Translations under genes and position numbers: made by a program
Notes under the pieces: model-generated
The model's database searches: none
What the model was told of the DNA's origin: nothing
Seen by the model: the letters and a program-made list of their open reading frames with translations, nothing else
DNA from: Gammaproteobacteria bacterium
Lineage (GTDB): Bacteria; Pseudomonadota; Gammaproteobacteria; Xanthomonadales; Wenzhouxiangellaceae
Direction of reading: 5' to 3'
Assembly (NCBI GenBank): GCA_009908385.1
Contig: JAAAPE010000092.1
Location: 1 to 64,000, forward strand
Length of the DNA stretch: 64,000 nucleotides
Part shown: in pieces, positions 2,512 through 40,543 of the stretch
Numbering within the stretch: position 1 is the first letter of the stretch
Layout: each line of letters opens with the position of its first letter

Positions 2512-3525
2512 TTAAAGTACCGGAAGCTTGTAAGGTTCGCCGGCGACCTCCCGTACGAGCCTGGGAACGAGGTAGCCGGACAGTTCGCGACGTAGTGAAT
2601 CCATCAGGTTCCCGAGGCGCGCGGCGTCGGTTTCGAAGCGCTGGGCGCCACTGACCGGGTCGAGCAGGTGGAGGTAATAGGGCAGGGCGCCCGCTTCGAA
2701 TCCGCGGCGCATGAGCGCGCCCAGGGCGGTCGCCGAGTCATTGATTCCGGCCAGCAGAACGGCCTGGTTGAGCACATGTGCGCCGCGCCGGCGCAGTCTC
2801 AGGATGGCGTCGTCGACATGCTCGTCGAATTCGTTGGCGTGATTGGCGTGGACGACGAAGACGACGGGCCAGGGTATCGAGCCGACCCAGTCGAGGAGGT
2901 TGTTGGTGATGCGATCGGGCAGGATCACCGGCATGCGGGTGTGGATTCGAATGCGACGCAGATGGGCGATCGAGGCCAGCGCGTCGGTCAGCTCGCGCAA
3001 CCGCCGGGTGGGCAGCATCAGCGGATCGCCACCGGAGAGGATCACCTCTTCGATGCTCGGGTCGTCGGCGATGTAGTCGAGCGCCGCCCGCCAGCGGTCG
3101 GCCCCGGCCCGCTGGCTGGTATAGGGAAACGCCTGCCGAAAGCAATAGCGGCAGTGAACCGCGCATGCACCGGTCGTGACCAGCAGGGCGCGTCCTTCGT
3201 ACTTGTGCAGGATGCCGGGCCCCTTCGCGCTCGCGCGGTCGCCGACCGGGTCGTCGCTGTAGCCGGCTGCGGCGATCGACTCGGCGCGATCGGGCAGCAC
3301 CTGGAGCAGCAGCGGGTCGCGGCGCTGCCCTGGCTGCATGCGCGCGATGAACGCCTGTGGCACGAGCGTGGGGAAGTGGCTGTCGGCGGGTTCGCCCAGC
3401 GGGTCCAGGCCGAGCTGTTCGAGCAGCCGGGCCGGTTTCCGGACGGCGGCCGAAAGCTGTTCGCGCCAGCGTGCCTGCTTGGGTGCAAACGCCGTTCGCG
3501 CTAAACTATCGGTTTGCATCAGCAC
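2512..3525 (-). CDS. epmB: EF-P beta-lysylation protein EpmB (lysine 2,3-aminomutase family)
   Basis: This radical SAM, PLP-dependent aminomutase of 337 residues converts (S)-alpha-lysine to (R)-beta-lysine for attachment to elongation factor P. The [4Fe-4S] motif CAVHCRYC gives C121, C125 and C128, followed by the glycine-rich LSGGDPLML segment typical of the KamA/EpmB family. Its length matches short EpmB proteins rather than the longer clostridial KamA. It is divergently transcribed from efp across a 66-bp gap, and efp is its substrate gene. The first in-frame start is GTG at 3525; an ATG two codons later (3519) with GAGAG upstream is equally possible. The partner ligase EpmA is not in this window. 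Confidence 0.93.
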   Translation of the reverse strand: MLMQTDSLARTAFAPKQARWREQLSAAVRKPARLLEQLGLDPLGEPADSHFPTLVPQAFIARMQPGQRRDPLLLQVLPDRAESIAAAGYSDDPVGDRASAKGPGILHKYEGRALLVTTGACAVHCRYCFRQAFPYTSQRAGADRWRAALDYIADDPSIEEVILSGGDPLMLPTRRLRELTDALASIAHLRRIRIHTRMPVILPDRITNNLLDWVGSIPWPVVFVVHANHANEFDEHVDDAILRLRRRGAHVLNQAVLLAGINDSATALGALMRRGFEAGALPYYLHLLDPVSGAQRFETDAARLGNLMDSLRRELSGYLVPRLVREVAGEPYKLPVL

Positions 3526-3591
3526 TCTCGTCTCGAAGAATCTTCGCCTCGACCCCTGGTGGCCGGGGCGTCATTGTAATCCGGAGTCATC

Positions 3592-4161
3592 ATGGCAACT
3601 TACAGTACCAGCGAGTTCAAGTCGGGCCTCAAGATCATTCTCGACGGAGATCCCTACAACATCGTCGAAAACGAGTTCGTCAAGCCCGGCAAGGGTCAGG
3701 CCTTCAGTCGCGTGAAGGTCCGCAACCTGCTCACCGGACGCGTGATCGAGCGGACCTTCAAGTCCGGTGATTCCGTCGAAGCCGCCGACGTGTTCGAAAA
3801 GGAGGTCCAGTATCTCTACAGCGACGGCGAGTTCTGGCACTTCATGGATCCCGACTCCTTCGAGCAGCTGCCCGCCGACGAGAAGGTGGTCGGTGACTCG
3901 GCGCAGTGGCTCAAGGAAGAGGACATGTGCCAGGTGACCCTGTGGAACGGTGCGCCGATCCAGATTCTCCCGCCCAACTTCGTCGAACTCAAGATCGTCG
4001 AAACCGACCCCGGGCTCAAGGGCGACACCTCGGGCAGCGGCGGCAAGCCGGCCCGCCTGGAAACGGGCGCCACCGTGCGCGTCCCCCTGTTCGTGCAGGA
4101 AGGGGAGGTGATCAAGGTCGATACCCGCAAGGGTGAATACCTCTCGCGCGTGAAGGACTGA
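3592..4161 (+). CDS. efp: Elongation factor P
   Basis: This 189-residue, three-domain protein stimulates peptide bond formation at polyproline stretches on the ribosome. The modification loop reads KPGKGQA, placing a lysine at position 34. That is the residue carrying beta-lysine in the EpmA/EpmB pathway, as opposed to the arginine of EarP-type EF-P. The neighbouring divergent epmB gene agrees with a lysine-modified protein. The C-terminal signature region ([23 protein letters not shown]) is conserved. GGAG lies seven bases upstream of the ATG. The gap to epmB (3526-3591) must contain both promoters; no strong hexamers stand out there. Confidence 0.97.
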
Positions 4162-4165
4162 TCCG

Positions 4166-5512
4166 GTGGGCGACACCCGCGAACTGCTGCTTCCCCGCTG
4201 GATCGTTCCCGTCCGGCCCGAAGGGCTCGTGCTCGAAGCGCACGGCCTGTTGATCGAGGACGGCGCCATCGCGGAGCTCGCACCGGCGGCCGAACTGCTC
4301 GAAGCGCACCCGGAAGTGACGACGACAAGGCTGCCGGACCACGCGCTGATGCCGGGCCTCGTGAACATCCACACGCACAGCGCGATGGCCCTGATGCGCG
4401 GTCTCGCCGATGACCTGCCGCTGATGCGCTGGCTCGAGGATCATATCTGGCCGACGGAGCAGCGCTGGGTCGGTGCCGAGTTCGTGCGCGTCGGCACGGA
4501 ACTGGCGCTGGCCGAGATGATCCGGGGCGGCACGACCTGTTTCAACGACAACTACTTCTTTCCCGACGTGACCGCGGTCGCGGCCGACCAGGCCGGCATG
4601 CGCGCGGCGATCGGCATTCCGATCATTTCGGTGCCGACGGCCTGGGCCCAGACCGAGGACGAGTACTTCAGGCGCGGGCTGGACATGCACCAGCAGCTGC
4701 ACGACTTCCCGCTGGTCTCGTCGGCCTTCGCGCCGCACGCGCCTTACACGGTTACCGACAAGGCCTTCGAGCGGATTCGTTCCCTGGCCGAGGAAATGGA
4801 CATCCCGGTCCACCTGCACCTGCTGGAGACGGCCGGCGAGATCCAGCTCAGCCACGATGAATTCGGCATGGCGCCGCTCGATCGCATGGATGCCCTGGGC
4901 CTGCTGACCGATCGCCTGCTCGCGGTCCACATGACGCAGCTCGACGATCCGGATATCGCGCGGCTGGCGCGCCGCGGTGTGCACGTCCTGCACTGTCCGG
5001 CGTCCAATCTCAAGCTCGCCAGCGGTACCTGCCGCGTCGCCGACCTGGACGCCGCCGGCGTCAACGTGGCGATCGGGACCGACGGCGCGGCGAGCAACAA
5101 CACCCTGGACATGTTCGCGGAGACGAGGCTGGCCGCCCTTGTGGCCAAGGGTGCGAGCGGCAATCCCGAAGCCGTACCCGCGGAGCGGGCCCTGTCGATG
5201 GCGACGATCAACGGCGCCCGAGCGCTGGGCCAGCACGACCGTTTCGGTTCGATCGAGCCCGGCAAGCGCGCCGACCTCGCGGCGGTCGACCTGTCGGCGA
5301 TGGAAACCGCACCCGTCCACCACGTCATATCGCATCTCGTCTATGCCGCCTCGCGGCACCAGGTCAGCGACGTCTGGATAGACGGACGACGGGTCCTCGA
5401 GCGAGGCGCCCTGACGACCATCGATGCCGAGCGCACGGCCCGCGAGACCGAGCAATGGGGCCGGCGCCTGCTCGAAAGCGACCGCCGCTCGGCCGGAACG
5501 TCGAATCCATGA
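4166..5512 (+). CDS. TRZ/ATZ-family amidohydrolase (MTA/SAH deaminase-like)
   Basis: A 448-residue metal-dependent hydrolase of the amidohydrolase superfamily. The first metal ligands are in NIHTHSA (H69 and H71). Later conserved histidines occur in HLHLLETAGE and VLHCPASN, and the catalytic aspartate is in IGTDGAASNN. Family members closest in layout deaminate 5'-methylthioadenosine or S-adenosylhomocysteine, recycling by-products of methylation. That fits the overlapping downstream methyltransferase ubiG (ATGA overlap). The start is GTG, four bases after the efp stop, so translation may be coupled. Substrate is inferred; other adenosine, guanine or triazine substrates are possible. Confidence 0.85.
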   Translation: MGDTRELLLPRWIVPVRPEGLVLEAHGLLIEDGAIAELAPAAELLEAHPEVTTTRLPDHALMPGLVNIHTHSAMALMRGLADDLPLMRWLEDHIWPTEQRWVGAEFVRVGTELALAEMIRGGTTCFNDNYFFPDVTAVAADQAGMRAAIGIPIISVPTAWAQTEDEYFRRGLDMHQQLHDFPLVSSAFAPHAPYTVTDKAFERIRSLAEEMDIPVHLHLLETAGEIQLSHDEFGMAPLDRMDALGLLTDRLLAVHMTQLDDPDIARLARRGVHVLHCPASNLKLASGTCRVADLDAAGVNVAIGTDGAASNNTLDMFAETRLAALVAKGASGNPEAVPAERALSMATINGARALGQHDRFGSIEPGKRADLAAVDLSAMETAPVHHVISHLVYAASRHQVSDVWIDGRRVLERGALTTIDAERTARETEQWGRRLLESDRRSAGTSNP

Positions 5513-34770: not shown

Positions 34771-36468
34771 TCAGTCGCCGGGCCGGTTCTTCTTGCGCTC
34801 GGAGATTTCGAGCACGTTGGACTCCTCGGACCCGTTGTCCATCTCCACGGTTTCGTCGAGATCCTCCTCGTCGAAGTCGGGGGGCGGTCGAACCACAGGT
34901 GGTTGCTGCATGTGGCCGTAGCGCTCCTCGAGGCGATTGGCCATGTCGTTGAAGCGCTCGTAGAGCGTCGCCAGCAGGTCCTGCTTTCCGGGTTCGAGCC
35001 GCGCGTCGTACTGGCCGCGGGCGATGCGCTGAAGGCCGCGGCTGATTCGCTGCACGGAACGTCTCTGCTGGCGCATGAGCAGGCTGAATCCCACCCCGAC
35101 CACGATCAGTGTGACGCTGAAGACCAGCGCCAGCATGGTCATCGTTGTGCGCCCCGCGGCTTCCAGTCCGGCGCTGTCGATGCCCAGCTGCACTTCCCCG
35201 ATCCGCCGTGCCTGGAAGCGAATCGGGGTCTGGAACTCCAGCGTTCCGTCCTCGCGCGAGAGCAGCCTGACGCCGCCCTGTTCACGTTCGATGACCGCCC
35301 GGACCGGTCGGGGCCTGGGTTCGCCCTGCAGGAACGGGTCGGTGCTGGCCTGGACGCGGCCGTCGCGGTCGCTGATGTGGAGGAAGGTGATGCGCGGATT
35401 GATCGAGAAGTCGGAGACCAGGTTCGACAGCGCCGTCGTATCGTCGAGCATCAGCGCCTCGGCGGTTTCCCGGGCGATCACCGAGGCCAGCGCATCGCCG
35501 TAGCCGTAAGTCGATTCGGTCATGGCCTCTGTCTGGCTGTGGAAGATCCAGGCCAGCCCGCCGCCGAGCACGACGACGAGCGCCAGCGCCAGGGAAGCCA
35601 GCCAGCGCCAGTGACCGGGCTGTCCGCGCACCGTCTTGATCAGGCCGCGCTCCATGTCGGCGCGAATCTCGTGCAGCTCCTCGAGGACCAGCGAACCGGT
35701 GGCGGGTCGCAGTTCCGGATCCTTGGCGAGCAGGCGGTGGACGAGTTCGATGAGGTCGATGGGGGTGCGATCGTCGCTCGGCCGCAGCGGCGCCGGCACG
35801 CGATGGCTGATCTGGTGGATCAGCGCGCCGATCGAATCGGCGGCAAACGGGGTCTCGCCACCGACCAGGCGGTAGAGGACCACCCCGAGCGCGTAGAGGT
35901 CGGAGCGGCCGTCGAGCTCGCTCCCCTGCAGCTGTTCGGGGGCCATGTACTTGGGCGTGCCCGCGATGGTGCCGGCGGCCTCCTCGTCGCCCCTGCGGTC
36001 GACGATCGCGGCGATGCCGAAGTCGACCAGTTTCACGAGGCCGGACTGGGGGTCGAAATAGATGTTGGACGGCTTGACGTCGCGGTGGATGATGCCGCGT
36101 TCGTGGGCGTAGTGCAGGGCGCCGGCCAGCTGGGTGCCGATGTCGATGATTTCGGACGTCGACAGTTTGCCCCCGTCTTCGAGATATTCCTCCAGGCTGT
36201 GGCCCTTGAGGCGTTCCATGACAAGGAAGGGCAGGCCTTCGTGCTGCCCGACGTCGAACACCGTGACGATGTTGGGGTGGCTCAGCCCCCCGGCGGAGCG
36301 GGCCTCGCGCAGGAATCGCTGGCGGCTCTTGATGTCTCGCGCGTAGCGCTCGCGCAGCACCTTGACCGCGAGATGGCGATTGATGTGCGGATCGAAGGCC
36401 TCGTAGACGATGGACATCGACCCACGTCCCAGTTCCCTTTCGATCTTGTAGCGGCCGATTCGCTCCAT
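34771..36468 (-). CDS. Transmembrane Ser/Thr protein kinase with periplasmic sensor and C-terminal HAMP
   Basis: The kinase domain occupies residues 1-270. The glycine loop is GRGSMSIVYEA (14-24), the ATP lysine K36, the catalytic HRDVKPSN loop (128-135) and DFG 149-151, with GTPKYMAPEQ (170-179) in the activation segment. All key residues are present, so it should be active. A transmembrane helix (about 290-309) is followed by an extracytoplasmic sensor-like region (310-443), a second helix (444-464) and a HAMP-like linker (about 466-518). An acidic tail with DFDEEDLDETVEMDNGSEESN follows. The kinase therefore lies N-terminal and the HAMP has no domain after it except the tail. Targets are unknown. 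Confidence 0.93.
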   Translation of the reverse strand: MERIGRYKIERELGRGSMSIVYEAFDPHINRHLAVKVLRERYARDIKSRQRFLREARSAGGLSHPNIVTVFDVGQHEGLPFLVMERLKGHSLEEYLEDGGKLSTSEIIDIGTQLAGALHYAHERGIIHRDVKPSNIYFDPQSGLVKLVDFGIAAIVDRRGDEEAAGTIAGTPKYMAPEQLQGSELDGRSDLYALGVVLYRLVGGETPFAADSIGALIHQISHRVPAPLRPSDDRTPIDLIELVHRLLAKDPELRPATGSLVLEELHEIRADMERGLIKTVRGQPGHWRWLASLALALVVVLGGGLAWIFHSQTEAMTESTYGYGDALASVIARETAEALMLDDTTALSNLVSDFSINPRITFLHISDRDGRVQASTDPFLQGEPRPRPVRAVIEREQGGVRLLSREDGTLEFQTPIRFQARRIGEVQLGIDSAGLEAAGRTTMTMLALVFSVTLIVVGVGFSLLMRQQRRSVQRISRGLQRIARGQYDARLEPGKQDLLATLYERFNDMANRLEERYGHMQQPPVVRPPPDFDEEDLDETVEMDNGSEESNVLEISERKKNRPGD

Positions 36469-36546: not shown

Positions 36547-37056
36547 TCAGGCGTGCCCGGCGCGACGTCCGAGATAGAAGTGGATGGCGATCCAGTCGTA
36601 GAGCGCGTGGACGAGTATCGGCACCAGCAGGTTGCCGGTCCAGTGGTAGAGGAGGCCGAGATACAGGCCCATCAGGGTGGCGAGCGCCCAGTAGGCCATG
36701 GAGACGGCGTGCGCCGCGCCGAACAGGATCGAGGCGACCACCAGGCCGATCGCGGGAGACGACAGCTCGATCAGGCCGGCCTGGACGACGCCGCGAAACA
36801 ACAGCTCCTCGCCGATGCCCGCCAGCGCCGCAACGGCGACGACCGCGCCGGGCCAGGCGTTGCGAAACAGCAGTTGGAGAAAGCGGCGCACGAGTCCGGT
36901 CAGCTCGTCCGCCCACCGCCAGCGACCCGAGGGCAGGGCGAGCAGGCTCGCGGCGATCGGCATCGTGGCCGCCACGCCGATGGCCAGGGCCGTCCAGGAG
37001 AACTCAAAATCCTGCCAGGGTCGCAGGCCGAACAGCCAGGCCAGTCCGACGGCCAC
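36547..37056 (-). CDS. CPBP-family intramembrane metalloprotease (possibly 5'-extended)
   Basis: The 169-residue multi-pass protein has all CPBP (Rce1-like) motifs: EELLFRG, FGAAHAV and HALYDW. These residues coordinate zinc in the membrane. The family processes prenylated proteins in eukaryotes and is linked to bacteriocin immunity or maturation in bacteria. The only standard start in the frame is GTG at 37056, but it falls inside the first hydrophobic helix. In-frame sequence upstream (TRRARPLTTALAFQGGLIVV) reads as the missing first part of that helix. A CTG at 37116, overlapping the thiolase stop codon, could be the true start. Confidence 0.8.
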   Translation of the reverse strand: MAVGLAWLFGLRPWQDFEFSWTALAIGVAATMPIAASLLALPSGRWRWADELTGLVRRFLQLLFRNAWPGAVVAVAALAGIGEELLFRGVVQAGLIELSSPAIGLVVASILFGAAHAVSMAYWALATLMGLYLGLLYHWTGNLLVPILVHALYDWIAIHFYLGRRAGHA

Positions 37057-37112: not shown

Positions 37113-38558
37113 TCAGTTCGACTCGTTCCCGGACGCCTCGCCGACTTGTTCGTCGCCGGACGGGGGCGCGGCCGTCTTGCGAGCCGCCTTCTTCTTGCCG
37201 GTCTTCTTCGACGCCTTCTTGCGGCTGCTCTTCTTGCGGGCGGTCTTCTTCGAGCCGCCACCGGAGCCGTTGTTGTCACGCTCGACAATCGCGGCAAGGC
37301 CCATGCCCCCGGCCGTGCACACGGAGATCAGCCCGCGGCCCGAGCCCGCTTTCTCGAGGACGTGCGCCAGCGTGCCGACGATCCGCGCGCCGGTGGCGGC
37401 GAACGGATGGCCGATCGCCACCGAACCGCCGTGGACGTTCATCTTGCTGCGGTCGATCGCGCCGAGCGCGCCGTCGAGTCCGAGCCGCTCGCGGCAGTAG
37501 GTCTCGTTCTCCCAGGCCTTGAGCGTGCACAGGACCTGCGCGGCGAAGGCCTCGTGGATCTCGTAGAAATCAAAATCCTGCAGGGCCAGCCCGGCACGCT
37601 GGAGCATTTCGGCCACGGCGACCGTCGGCGCCATCAGCAGGCCCTCGTCACCATCGACGTAGTCGACCGCGGCGGTGCGCGAATGGGTCAGCCAGGCCAG
37701 CACGGGCAGGTCGTGTTCGCGCACCCATTCCTCGGAGGCGAGCAGCACCGCGGCGGCGCCGTCCGACAGGGCGGTCGAGTTGCCGGCCGTCAGGGTGCCG
37801 TTCCTCGATCGGTCGAAAGCGGGCTTCAGGCTGGCCAGCTTCTCCATCGTCGTGTCCGGGCGCACGATGTTGTCGCGCACGACCCCGTTGAAGGGCTTGA
37901 CCAGGTCGTCGAAGAAACCCGAGTCCCAGGCTTCCGCGGCCTTCTGGTGGCTCTCCAGGGTGAGCTCGTCCTGTTCCTTGCGGCCGATGTTCCATTCGCG
38001 CGCCATGCGTTCGCAATGCTGTCCCATCGACAGCCCGGTTCGCGGCTCGGAATTGCGCGGCGGCTGCGGCGCCAGCTCGGAGAAGCTGAACCCCTTGAAG
38101 GCCTTCAGCTTCTGGCCGAAGGTCTTGGCCTTGTTGAGTTGCATCAGGCGCTGGGCGAATCGGCGCTTGAAAACGATCGGCACATCGGAGGTCGTGTCGG
38201 TGCCCCCGACGAGCGCGCACTCGATTTCCCCGGCCGCGATCTGGCTGCCGGCGAGCATGGCCGCCTGCAGACTCGTGCCGCAGGCCTGCTGCATGGTGAC
38301 CGCCGGCGTCAGCGGAGACAGCCCGGTCGACAGGACCGCTTCGCGCGCCAGGTTCCAGTCCTTCGAATGCGTCGTGACGGCACCGGCAATCACCTGGTCG
38401 AGCTTCTTGCCGGCCAGGCCGTAGCGATCGACCACGCCCCGGAAGGCCGCCGTCAGCATGTCGAGATTGGTCTGATCGGCATAAAGGCTGCCGGAGCGGC
38501 AGAACGGGATGCGGCTGCCGCCGACAATGGCGATTCGGCGCAGGTTCTTGTCGGGCAT
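37113..38558 (-). CDS. fadI: Acetyl-CoA acyltransferase (thiolase) with lysine-rich C-terminal tail
   Basis: The enzyme cleaves 3-ketoacyl-CoA in fatty acid beta-oxidation. Catalytic residues are visible: nucleophile Cys in QQACGTSLQ, His in GHPFAATG and second Cys in CTAGGMG, with the EIHEAFA motif. The core ends near residue 430. A 51-residue extension follows; it begins GSGGGS, then runs of KK/RKK/KKK separated by Ala, Ser and Thr (437-462, 15 basic residues in 26), then an acidic end. This resembles histone H1-like or AlgP-type tails and is not usual for thiolases. The start overlaps the stop of the upstream fadJ-like gene (TGATG). FadI-like is preferred because of length and partner. Confidence 0.9.
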   Translation of the reverse strand: MPDKNLRRIAIVGGSRIPFCRSGSLYADQTNLDMLTAAFRGVVDRYGLAGKKLDQVIAGAVTTHSKDWNLAREAVLSTGLSPLTPAVTMQQACGTSLQAAMLAGSQIAAGEIECALVGGTDTTSDVPIVFKRRFAQRLMQLNKAKTFGQKLKAFKGFSFSELAPQPPRNSEPRTGLSMGQHCERMAREWNIGRKEQDELTLESHQKAAEAWDSGFFDDLVKPFNGVVRDNIVRPDTTMEKLASLKPAFDRSRNGTLTAGNSTALSDGAAAVLLASEEWVREHDLPVLAWLTHSRTAAVDYVDGDEGLLMAPTVAVAEMLQRAGLALQDFDFYEIHEAFAAQVLCTLKAWENETYCRERLGLDGALGAIDRSKMNVHGGSVAIGHPFAATGARIVGTLAHVLEKAGSGRGLISVCTAGGMGLAAIVERDNNGSGGGSKKTARKKSSRKKASKKTGKKKAARKTAAPPSGDEQVGEASGNESN

Positions 38559-40543
38559 CAGGACGCCTCCTTGTCGGCTTGGGCGTTTTCGAGATAATGC
38601 ATCGGGCCACCGCGGAACGGCGCGAAGCCGGTGCCGAAGATCATGCCGGCATCGAGCAGGTCCTTGTCTTCAACGACCCCGTCGTCCAGGCAGGACCGGC
38701 ATTCGTCGAAATAGGGCTGCATGAGCTGTTCGGCCAGCTTGTCGAGATCGTGGCCCTGGTGCGCGTCCTTGTCGCGCTCGGGTTTGCCGTCCTTCCAGCG
38801 ATAGAAGCCCTCACCCGACTTCTTGCCCAGCTTGCCGGCCTCGACCATCTCCTCGAGCACCTTGCGGTCTTCGCCGGCGTCGTCGCCCATGAGCGTCTTG
38901 ATCACGCCCAGCCCGACGTCGAGGCCGACGGTGTCGGCCAGCTCGACCGGACCCATCGGCATGCCGAATCGTTCGGCCGCCTTGTCGAGCGCTTCCTTGG
39001 GCACGCCTTCGCGATGCATCTTCATGGCGTTGCGCATGTACGGGGCCAGGACGCGGTTGACCAGGAAGCCGGGCGTGGACGTGACCGGCAGGGCGTACTT
39101 GCCGATCTGCGTGGCAAAGCTCGATCCGTCATCGACCCGGCCGGAATCGGACAGTTTGGCGTCGTAGACGACTTCGACCAGCGGCATCTTCGCCACCGGG
39201 TTGAAGAAGTGCAGCCCGATCAGCCGGGAGGGGTTGTCGAACACGTCGGCCAGTTCGGACAGGGGGATCGCCGAGGTGTTGGTCGCCACCAGCGCACGCC
39301 GCGGTGCTTCCTTGTTGATGCGCTTGAACAGCTCGCGCTTGGCGTCGCGGTCCTCGAAGATGGCCTCGATGATGACGTCGGCCCGGCGAATGCCGGCGCC
39401 CTCGACATCGGCCAGCAGCCGGCTGCGACCGGCGGCTACGGCGGTCGGCGTCTTTAGCTTGCGCTTGAACAGCTTCGCGGCGCGCTTGAGTGCCGGCTCG
39501 ATATACTTCAGTTCGCGGTCCTGGAGCGTGACCTCCATGCCGCGCGATGCGCACCATGCGGCGATGTCGCCGCCCATCACGCCAGCGCCGATGACGTGCA
39601 CGCGACGCGCCTTGAAATCGCTGCGCTTGCCCTGCGCCTTGAGCGATTCCATCAGCCGGAACACGCGCCGCAGGTTGCGCGAGGTGTCGCCGGCCAGCAG
39701 GCGGGGCACCTCCTCGGCTTCGATGCGGATCATGCCCGCGGCGGAGTCGCCCGCCGCCTCGAAGGCGTCGATCAGGGCATAGGGCGCGGGATAGTGTTCC
39801 TTGCGCGCCTTCGCGGCGGTCTGCTTTCGCATCTGGCCGGCGAGGAACTTGCGCACGGCGCCCCAGGTGGTCGCGCGTGCGATCAGGCCGGGGCGTCGCG
39901 ACTTGCGCTTCTTGAGCACGGCGTTGCGCGCCGCCCAGCGCAGCGAACCGTGCTGGTCCACCGTCTGGTCGACGAGGCCCTGGGCCTTGGCGGCCCGGGC
40001 TCGGAGCATCTTGCCCGTGAGCATGATCTGCATGGCCTGGAGGCCACCCATTTCCCGGATGCTGCGACCGGAGCCGCCGAAGCCGGGGTAGATGCCGAGG
40101 TTGACCTCCGGAAACCCGATGCGCGTGTGATCGGCGTCGAGGGCGATCCGGTAGTCGAAGCACAGCGACAGTTCCAGCCCGCCGCCGAGACAATAGCCTT
40201 CGAAGGCGACGACCGTCGGGAAGGGCAGGTCCTCGATCCGCTGGAACAGCTTGTGAACGTTGCGGACGTTGCTGCGCAGCTCCTCGACGTCGTCGGTGGC
40301 GTCGAACTCGCGCACGTCGGCGCCGACGATGAAGGACTTCGGCTTGCCCGACATCAGCACCAGGCCGGTCGGATGATCGGCTTCGAGCCGGCCGATGATG
40401 GACTCGAGTTCCTCGAGCACGACCGAGCCCAGGCTGTTGACCTTTTCGTCGTCGCGGTCGAGGTAGAGCCAGGCGATGCCGTCGAGATCGGATTCCAGCC
40501 GCCAGTGCCTGCCGGCGCTGCTTTGCGAGGCGGTTGATGCCAT
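38558..40543 (-). CDS. fadJ: Fatty acid oxidation complex alpha subunit (enoyl-CoA hydratase/3-hydroxyacyl-CoA dehydrogenase)
   Basis: The 661-residue bifunctional protein has an N-terminal crotonase domain (about 10-260) with GYCLGGGLELSL and GFPEVNLGIYPGFGG, which contain the two catalytic glutamates. A linker and a 3-hydroxyacyl-CoA dehydrogenase follow, with NAD loop GAGVMGG, catalytic-region HFFNPV and the C-terminal helical domains. It hydrates enoyl-CoA and oxidises the product for the adjacent thiolase. ATG at 40543 has GGAG nine bases upstream and is preferred; ATG at 40558 adds five residues. The order alpha-beta on one strand matches fadJI. Confidence 0.92.
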   Translation of the reverse strand: MASTASQSSAGRHWRLESDLDGIAWLYLDRDDEKVNSLGSVVLEELESIIGRLEADHPTGLVLMSGKPKSFIVGADVREFDATDDVEELRSNVRNVHKLFQRIEDLPFPTVVAFEGYCLGGGLELSLCFDYRIALDADHTRIGFPEVNLGIYPGFGGSGRSIREMGGLQAMQIMLTGKMLRARAAKAQGLVDQTVDQHGSLRWAARNAVLKKRKSRRPGLIARATTWGAVRKFLAGQMRKQTAAKARKEHYPAPYALIDAFEAAGDSAAGMIRIEAEEVPRLLAGDTSRNLRRVFRLMESLKAQGKRSDFKARRVHVIGAGVMGGDIAAWCASRGMEVTLQDRELKYIEPALKRAAKLFKRKLKTPTAVAAGRSRLLADVEGAGIRRADVIIEAIFEDRDAKRELFKRINKEAPRRALVATNTSAIPLSELADVFDNPSRLIGLHFFNPVAKMPLVEVVYDAKLSDSGRVDDGSSFATQIGKYALPVTSTPGFLVNRVLAPYMRNAMKMHREGVPKEALDKAAERFGMPMGPVELADTVGLDVGLGVIKTLMGDDAGEDRKVLEEMVEAGKLGKKSGEGFYRWKDGKPERDKDAHQGHDLDKLAEQLMQPYFDECRSCLDDGVVEDKDLLDAGMIFGTGFAPFRGGPMHYLENAQADKEAS

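Follow-up and report, generated by a model that had tools for sequence, protein, structure and literature searches.

A lysine-rich tail found on either subunit of a beta-oxidation alpha-beta pair in relatives of Wenzhouxiangella: a putative polyanion-binding element

Introduction

The locus described here raises the question of why a beta-oxidation thiolase with a complete core should end in a lysine-rich tail, and what such a tail might bind. It lies in a 64,000-nucleotide stretch of DNA (the window) from a 2.94-Mb draft genome, 85% complete, of a Wenzhouxiangella relative. According to passages of PMC6821194, lysine-rich low-complexity regions are found in many DNA-binding proteins of both prokaryotes and eukaryotes, and earlier studies of eukaryotes found metabolic proteins to be depleted of low-complexity regions. 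The place of the fatty-acid degradation enzymes within the cell is itself named as an open question in part of PMC9329746.

Results

The thiolase is encoded on the minus strand by a single intact open reading frame (38558..37113) of 481 codons, giving a protein of 481 aa. Based on the reading frame, profiles, Pfam and a structure match, the core (residues 1–427; 37278..38558, minus strand) is a thiolase beta subunit of the PRK09268 type and FadA2-like. The Pfam domains Thiolase_N and Thiolase_C span residues 9–427, and C93, H335, H384 and C414, which we take to be the catalytic residues, are invariant across 38 sequences; the two domains together with these invariant Cys and His residues place the protein among the thiolases. 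Pfam matched thiolase and ketoacyl-synthase models only, and the phasin domain PF05597 was absent. Against NF006740 (PRK09268, acetyl-CoA C-acetyltransferase) the protein scored 681.7 bits with a cut-off of 539, while it remained under the cut-offs of the equivalogs for FadI (NF006516, 423.3 vs 560; TIGR02446, 356.2 vs 711.55) and FadA (NF006510, 211.9 vs 519; TIGR02445, 195.9 vs 591). The first-pass annotation had set the enzyme beside FadA and FadI; its reading as a beta-oxidation thiolase stands, but an identity as FadA or FadI does not, since the curated cut-offs place the enzyme in NF006740. The nearest solved structure by sequence was FadA2 of M. tuberculosis (7xly, 495.6 bits), which was also the first fold match of the AlphaFold model, and thiolases alone were present among the 50 structure matches listed. 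FadA2 differs in having no tail, as residue 426 of the window protein aligns to residue 439 of its 440. The model, built with 38 sequences, has a mean pLDDT of 76, and most of the core is confident.

Beyond the core, the reading frame continues through a Gly/Asn/Ser-rich linker, DNNGSGGGS (residues 428–436; 37251..37277, minus strand), a lysine-rich segment, KKTARKKSSRKKASKKTGKKKAARKT, with 15 Lys or Arg among its 26 residues (437–462; 37173..37250, minus strand), and an acidic end of 19 residues (463–481; 37116..37172, minus strand), which is followed by the stop codon (37113–37115, minus strand). The 481-aa frame and its composition thus agree with the earlier description of a basic, acidic-ended tail on a complete thiolase core. 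The tail is predicted to be disordered, with AlphaFold pLDDT values below 50 from residue 431 on and of about 31–38 over residues 431–481. Apart from a single Val it contains no aromatic or large aliphatic residue, and it consists of KK and KKK blocks with Ala, Ser and Thr, with Pro making up about 3% of the lysine-rich windows. When compared with the histone H1-like tails of the AlgP/PhaF kind, it is likewise Lys/Ala-rich and disordered, but it has no KPAA repeats. The tail DNA contains a decayed tandem repeat at 37171–37257 (period 42, 2.1 copies, 78% match) that overlaps the lysine-rich segment, so repeat expansion contributed to the origin of the tail.

A thiolase orthologue was identified in 41 of the 43 genomes of the family (E below 1e-110). 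The alignment of related thiolases, proposed earlier as a check on conservation, revealed the tail, scored as present at a length of at least 40 aa, in 17 of the 41 family loci including the window; 23 others stop no more than 9 residues past the core. The remaining locus, in G064, has a broken core and was excluded from the tail counts, as its thiolase match ends at residue 391 and the sequence beyond looks out of frame. The 17 beta tails are 49–89 aa long and contain 8–21 lysines, the weakest being those of G005 and G013 with 8 lysines in their best 30 residues, below our mark of 9 in 30. In 13 of the 17, the final 18 residues carry a net negative charge, and degenerate tandem repeats scoring at least 50 were detected in 9 of the 17. 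A frameshift or assembly error was rejected because in-frame tails occur in 16 other genomes. Four close orthologues from other genomes (90–92% core identity) cross the core-tail junction in frame, with tails of 52–67 aa; neither a frameshift nor the lack of the tail in all close orthologues, which the first-pass annotation had named as refuting the tail, was therefore found.

Outside the family, the thiolases that were read stop at or near the core, as had been stated earlier for ordinary thiolases. Among the best 80 of 545 named loci, a lysine-rich tail was present in three (L031, L032 and L035), which by their tails are the family genomes G009, G002 and G013, and in none from outside the family; the thiolase of L099 bears an extension of 35 residues that includes 5 lysines and is not lysine-rich. 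A search of 369 genomes of the class, which reveals tails through match length only, gave 36 genomes with a close match, and of these only the source genome itself matched past residue 427 without an internal stop. In the sister family f8 (36 loci), none of the 31 loci with a readable thiolase end had the tail. On a tree of the thiolase only, from which G064 and G020 were left out, the beta tail requires at least 2 changes (bootstrap range 2–4), and whole clades are without it. In tail-less relatives, inspection by eye of all three forward reading frames over 240 bases beyond the stop revealed no lysine-rich remnant, and a decayed tail at that position was rejected.

In the window, the thiolase is followed by a gene for a CPBP-family intramembrane protease (36547–37056) and one for a PknB-like Ser/Thr kinase (34771–36468), both scoring under the curated cut-offs. 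Of the 17 beta-tailed loci, 11 have the CPBP gene 3' of the thiolase, vs 0 of the 24 other loci, some of which are cut by contig ends. Capture of the tail from this downstream gene was rejected, as the beta-tailed genomes G002, G005, G013, G017, G030 and G035 have no CPBP gene there. The kinase gene adjoins the thiolase in 6 of the 17 beta-tailed loci; given that the tail is rich in Ser and Thr, a link between the two is conceivable.

The gene preceding the thiolase encodes a FadJ-like alpha subunit, assigned by profiles and Pfam (38558..40543, minus strand; 661 aa from MASTASQ, a start picked by eye), and its stop overlaps the thiolase start by one base. It carries hydratase and dehydrogenase Pfam domains and stays below the cut-offs of the FadJ and FadB equivalogs (best 466.2 vs 869, NF008363). 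In relatives whose contig shows both genes, alpha lies directly before beta, which is the gene pairing of a trifunctional-type complex. FadIJ of E. coli and the human mitochondrial trifunctional protein are alpha-beta pairs. The beta fold is common to them (8bnr, 6dv2) and to the window thiolase; however, their matched chains end at the core or within a few residues of it, whereas the window thiolase is tailed, and the window pair differs from the E. coli type in not reaching the curated FadI, FadJ and FadB cut-offs.

Lysine-rich ends were also found on the alpha subunit. Eight genomes have a lysine-rich alpha C-terminus, namely all six analysed of genus g6 (G034, G061–G065) and both of genus g5 (G033, G066), and both genomes of genus g4 have a lysine-rich alpha N-terminus, that of G032 starting MTASTSKKTSNKKAAKKTARK and that of G036 starting MNKKTTKKKTAKKTARK, with the former under the mark of 9 lysines in 30. 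The mark is also reached in G006, G022 and G028, where it falls inside the alpha fold and not at an end. None of the 17 beta-tailed genomes has a lysine-rich alpha end, and no genome was seen with a lysine-rich tail on both subunits, the beta end of G064 being unreadable. Thus 27 of the 38 decidable family genomes, a tally that leaves out G001, G007, G012, G020 and G031, carry the tail at one of three termini. The other 11 are tail-less on both subunits (G004, G006, G014, G015, G016, G019, G022, G023, G025, G026 and G028), which indicates that the tail is dispensable; in G015, alpha is on another contig and the thiolase is extended by 9 residues, 2 of them lysines. In the sister family f8, the alpha C-terminus is lysine-rich in 2 of 35 readable cases (G486 and G578) and the N-terminus in 0 of 36 read. 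The tail therefore seems to be a property of the alpha-beta pair, an aspect missing from the first-pass annotation, and its presence on alpha instead of beta in relatives suggests that the complex, rather than the thiolase, is what needs it.

Other alpha extensions were of a different composition. In five other families of the order (f2, f4, f5, f6 and f12), the 21 alpha homologues that were read out of many more found (46–49% identity) bear an extension that is not lysine-rich, and no thiolase was detected within the stretch read around these 21. In one sister-family genome (L232, G438), alpha ends in an acidic Pro/Glu/Asp-rich tail of 56 residues, not a lysine-rich one. A compensation of charge between the alpha and beta cores was rejected, as core charge did not differ clearly (Mann-Whitney p 0.48 for alpha and 0.12 for the thiolase core; 17 vs 20 genomes with full alpha).

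To follow presence and placement together, the alpha and beta cores were joined in one tree of 72 rows, representing 36 of the 43 family genomes and 36 sister-family genomes. This was a quick tree with SH-aLRT only, no mixture model and a midpoint root, from which G031 and G064 were left out, as were G007, G015 and G020, whose contig contains no alpha; G482, unreadable at both its alpha and its beta ends, and G518, G569 and G575, unreadable at the beta end, were labelled as having no tail, and G486 was labelled from alpha alone. On this tree, 4 changes account for tail presence and 6 for a label with four states (beta C, alpha C, alpha N, none); shuffled labels averaged 25.5. Read simply, the tail would have been acquired at the family's base, moved from alpha C to beta C in the Wenzhouxiangella lineage, changed between the alpha C- and N-termini in g4/g5, been lost from two clades and arisen separately in f8. 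The family itself contains only about two such moves, and with so few, separate gains in a lineage prone to lysine-rich ends could give the same picture.

The tail changes quickly in sequence and keeps its lysines. Lysine makes up 236 of the 278 Lys and Arg residues in the 17 tails vs 244 of 763 in their cores, in tail DNA of 57–72% GC. Tail dN/dS was 0.19–0.62 in 10 of 11 pairs (one saturated), with 31–43 synonymous sites per pair and low-complexity alignments, and about 0.02–0.10 in the core. In a neutral simulation starting from the window tail (point mutations, no indels or duplications, equilibrium GC assumed 0.66), with 3,000 runs at each distance, the share that ended with at least 12 lysines was 0.33% at 0.24 substitutions per site and zero at 0.6, 0.75 and 1.0; relatives at a core dS of 0.59–0.74 keep 13–15 tail lysines. 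The preference for Lys over Arg, the dN/dS values and the simulation together indicate a composition beyond what chance would give and a sequence that drifts with its lysine content held, though duplication of lysine units could itself help to keep lysine.

These data bear on the explanation that the tail has no selected function, and that this lineage tends to acquire low-complexity ends rich in lysine, lengthened by tandem duplication and altered by drift. The range of tail lengths from 49 to 89 aa, the entire clades without a tail, the lysine-rich ends on other proteins of the same genomes, and the decayed 42-base repeat together with the repeats in 9 of the 17 tails are all consistent with it. 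We nevertheless consider it unlikely, because lysines are shed fast under the point-mutation simulation (which has no duplications), 10 of 11 pairs have a tail dN/dS under 1 and no single genome was seen with a tail on both subunits.

We searched for other proteins with a codon pattern of three KK blocks. In the source genome, 8 loci matched, of which 6 are coding: RNase E, topoisomerase I, ribosomal protein S2, a phasin, a (KKKAS)n protein and the thiolase. The other two, C46 and C128, have no convincing lysine-rich gene at the match, which in C128 falls within a repeat of the AAAACG type where three overlapping frames are open. The single-contig genomes G018 and G026 share coding matches in topoisomerase I, S2, the phasin, the (KKKAS)n protein and a NYN-domain protein; RNase E and a DUF4389 protein matched only in G026, and the thiolase only in G018. 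The thiolase is the sole metabolic enzyme among the matches of the three genomes. Tail-less G026 retains its other lysine-rich proteins, so the lack is specific to the beta-oxidation complex, and within the limits of the pattern no other beta-oxidation protein was among its matches.

Two of the matched families deserve a separate remark. The small (KKKAS)n-type protein (L201:1249-1869, L206:1199-1975, G000 C85:3115-3312) differs greatly in length between relatives, has no Pfam match and is encoded by near-pure DNA repeats in G000 and G018. The NYN-domain protein has its lysine-rich stretch behind NYN in two Wenzhouxiangella genomes (L203:951-1811, L207:164-1507).

Discussion

Based on its composition, it is plausible that the tail binds some polyanion. 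Our leading interpretation, to which we give slightly less than an even chance, is that it is a disordered lysine-rich polyanion-binding element of a beta-oxidation (trifunctional-type) alpha-beta complex whose likeliest ligand is nucleic acid. If alpha and beta assemble as in the known trifunctional enzymes, each complex would carry two or more tails, and the KK and KKK blocks would provide non-specific, avid binding of a polyanion. Nucleoid DNA or RNA would be the most probable partner, by analogy with the tails of topoisomerase I, RNase E and S2, a likeness of composition only and on windows chosen for Lys and Arg. Beta-oxidation would thereby be positioned at the nucleoid or at regions rich in RNA. 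The acidic end, present in most tails, may temper binding; it would weaken the binding of DNA and so counts against a nucleic-acid tether.

Comparable extensions have been described in other bacteria. PhaF and AlgP of Pseudomonas also combine a disordered Lys/Ala-rich extension with a protein of carbon or phosphate storage, and pieces of the AlgP tail bind DNA, as that of PhaF is thought to do, according to sections of PMC9239181. AlgP, however, has a 154-aa stretch of KPAA repeats, in contrast to the KK/KKK blocks with Ala, Ser and Thr and about 3% Pro of the thiolase tail, and the host of the tail here is an enzyme without a phasin domain. The tails of Streptomyces TopA and HupS, as presented in parts of PMC11229371 and PMC7398561, are similar in their terminal KK doublets with small residues between; these proteins act on DNA, whereas here the host is a beta-oxidation pair whose tailed subunit differs between genera. 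A weak hint toward RNA is that FadI and FadJ of E. coli are included in a table of Hfq-associated proteins in PMC6773851. Lysine tails and trifunctional enzymes are thus each already known; in the open-access literature we did not find a lysine tail on a beta-oxidation pair at different termini in related genera, and the main text of the Wenzhouxiangella AB-CW3 genome paper (PMC7691419) contains none of the thiolase, fatty-acid or storage terms sought.

In passages of PMC11229371, KK doublets parted by Ser or Thr are suggested to be good targets of non-enzymatic acetylation by acetyl phosphate, and acetylated HupS is reported to bind DNA about twofold more weakly. A very unlikely extension of the nucleic-acid interpretation would be that acetyl-CoA made by a nucleoid-parked complex acetylates its own KK-Ser/Thr blocks, strips their charge and frees the complex, the tail acting as a gauge of acetyl-CoA. 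Evolution would then have kept the element while moving it among three termini of two subunits.

Other ligands were considered. Binding of polyphosphate, as for AlgP on polyphosphate granules (PMC9239181, in part), was among the ligands proposed earlier and has lost ground. PPK1 was detected in 39 of the 43 family genomes, but a search for it gave no match in 3 of the 17 beta-tailed ones, G011 (99% complete), G024 (97%) and G035 (91%), and we regard this ligand as highly improbable. Nucleic acid and the anionic membrane remain, because both are present in every cell. The lysine tail could bind anionic phospholipid and hold the enzyme near fatty-acid import and the respiratory chain; the membrane is available in all these cells, and FadIJ of E. 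coli has been proposed as possibly membrane-bound, with its localisation left open (PMC9329746, in the part consulted). Such a membrane tether is rather unlikely, as a tail with no aromatic residue and no large aliphatic one but a single Val has nothing to insert, and the look-alikes of the tail in the genome are mostly nucleic-acid proteins.

The close relatives, with the tail on beta, on alpha C, on alpha N or on neither, form a natural set in which the cellular location of a central metabolic complex can be put directly to the test. They would also offer a clear example of a disordered module that a complex retains as the site of its attachment shifts.

We also examined storage granules (PHA, or wax-ester or TAG bodies), to which the tail might hold the enzyme together with the lysine-rich phasin. 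A WS/DGAT gene is located some 1 kb away from the gene for the phasin, and both kinds of gene lean toward tailed genomes (phasin in 26/27 tailed vs 8/11 tail-less, WS/DGAT in 26/27 vs 9/11), a slight lean with incomplete drafts among the misses; these counts neither prove nor exclude a link to storage bodies. PhaC matches, on the other hand, were present in 6 of the 17 beta-tailed vs 7 of the 11 tail-less genomes. Since PhaC is absent from 11 of the 17, five of which are 95–99% complete, PHA granules are not needed, and the tail of the phasin, being positively charged too, would not attract that of the thiolase. A storage-granule tether is therefore scarcely credible.

The phasin deserves attention of its own. 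In G000 it is a PF05597 protein with a lysine-rich N-terminal tail, encoded on contig C72 in the vicinity of the gene for WS/DGAT, a wax-ester/TAG synthase, the two genes together occupying L209:1383-1982 and 2978-4447. The source draft genome has no PhaC match despite this phasin. Phasin and WS/DGAT genes lie close together on one contig in many relatives, and this phasin may belong to lipid bodies and tether wax-ester or TAG bodies to DNA.
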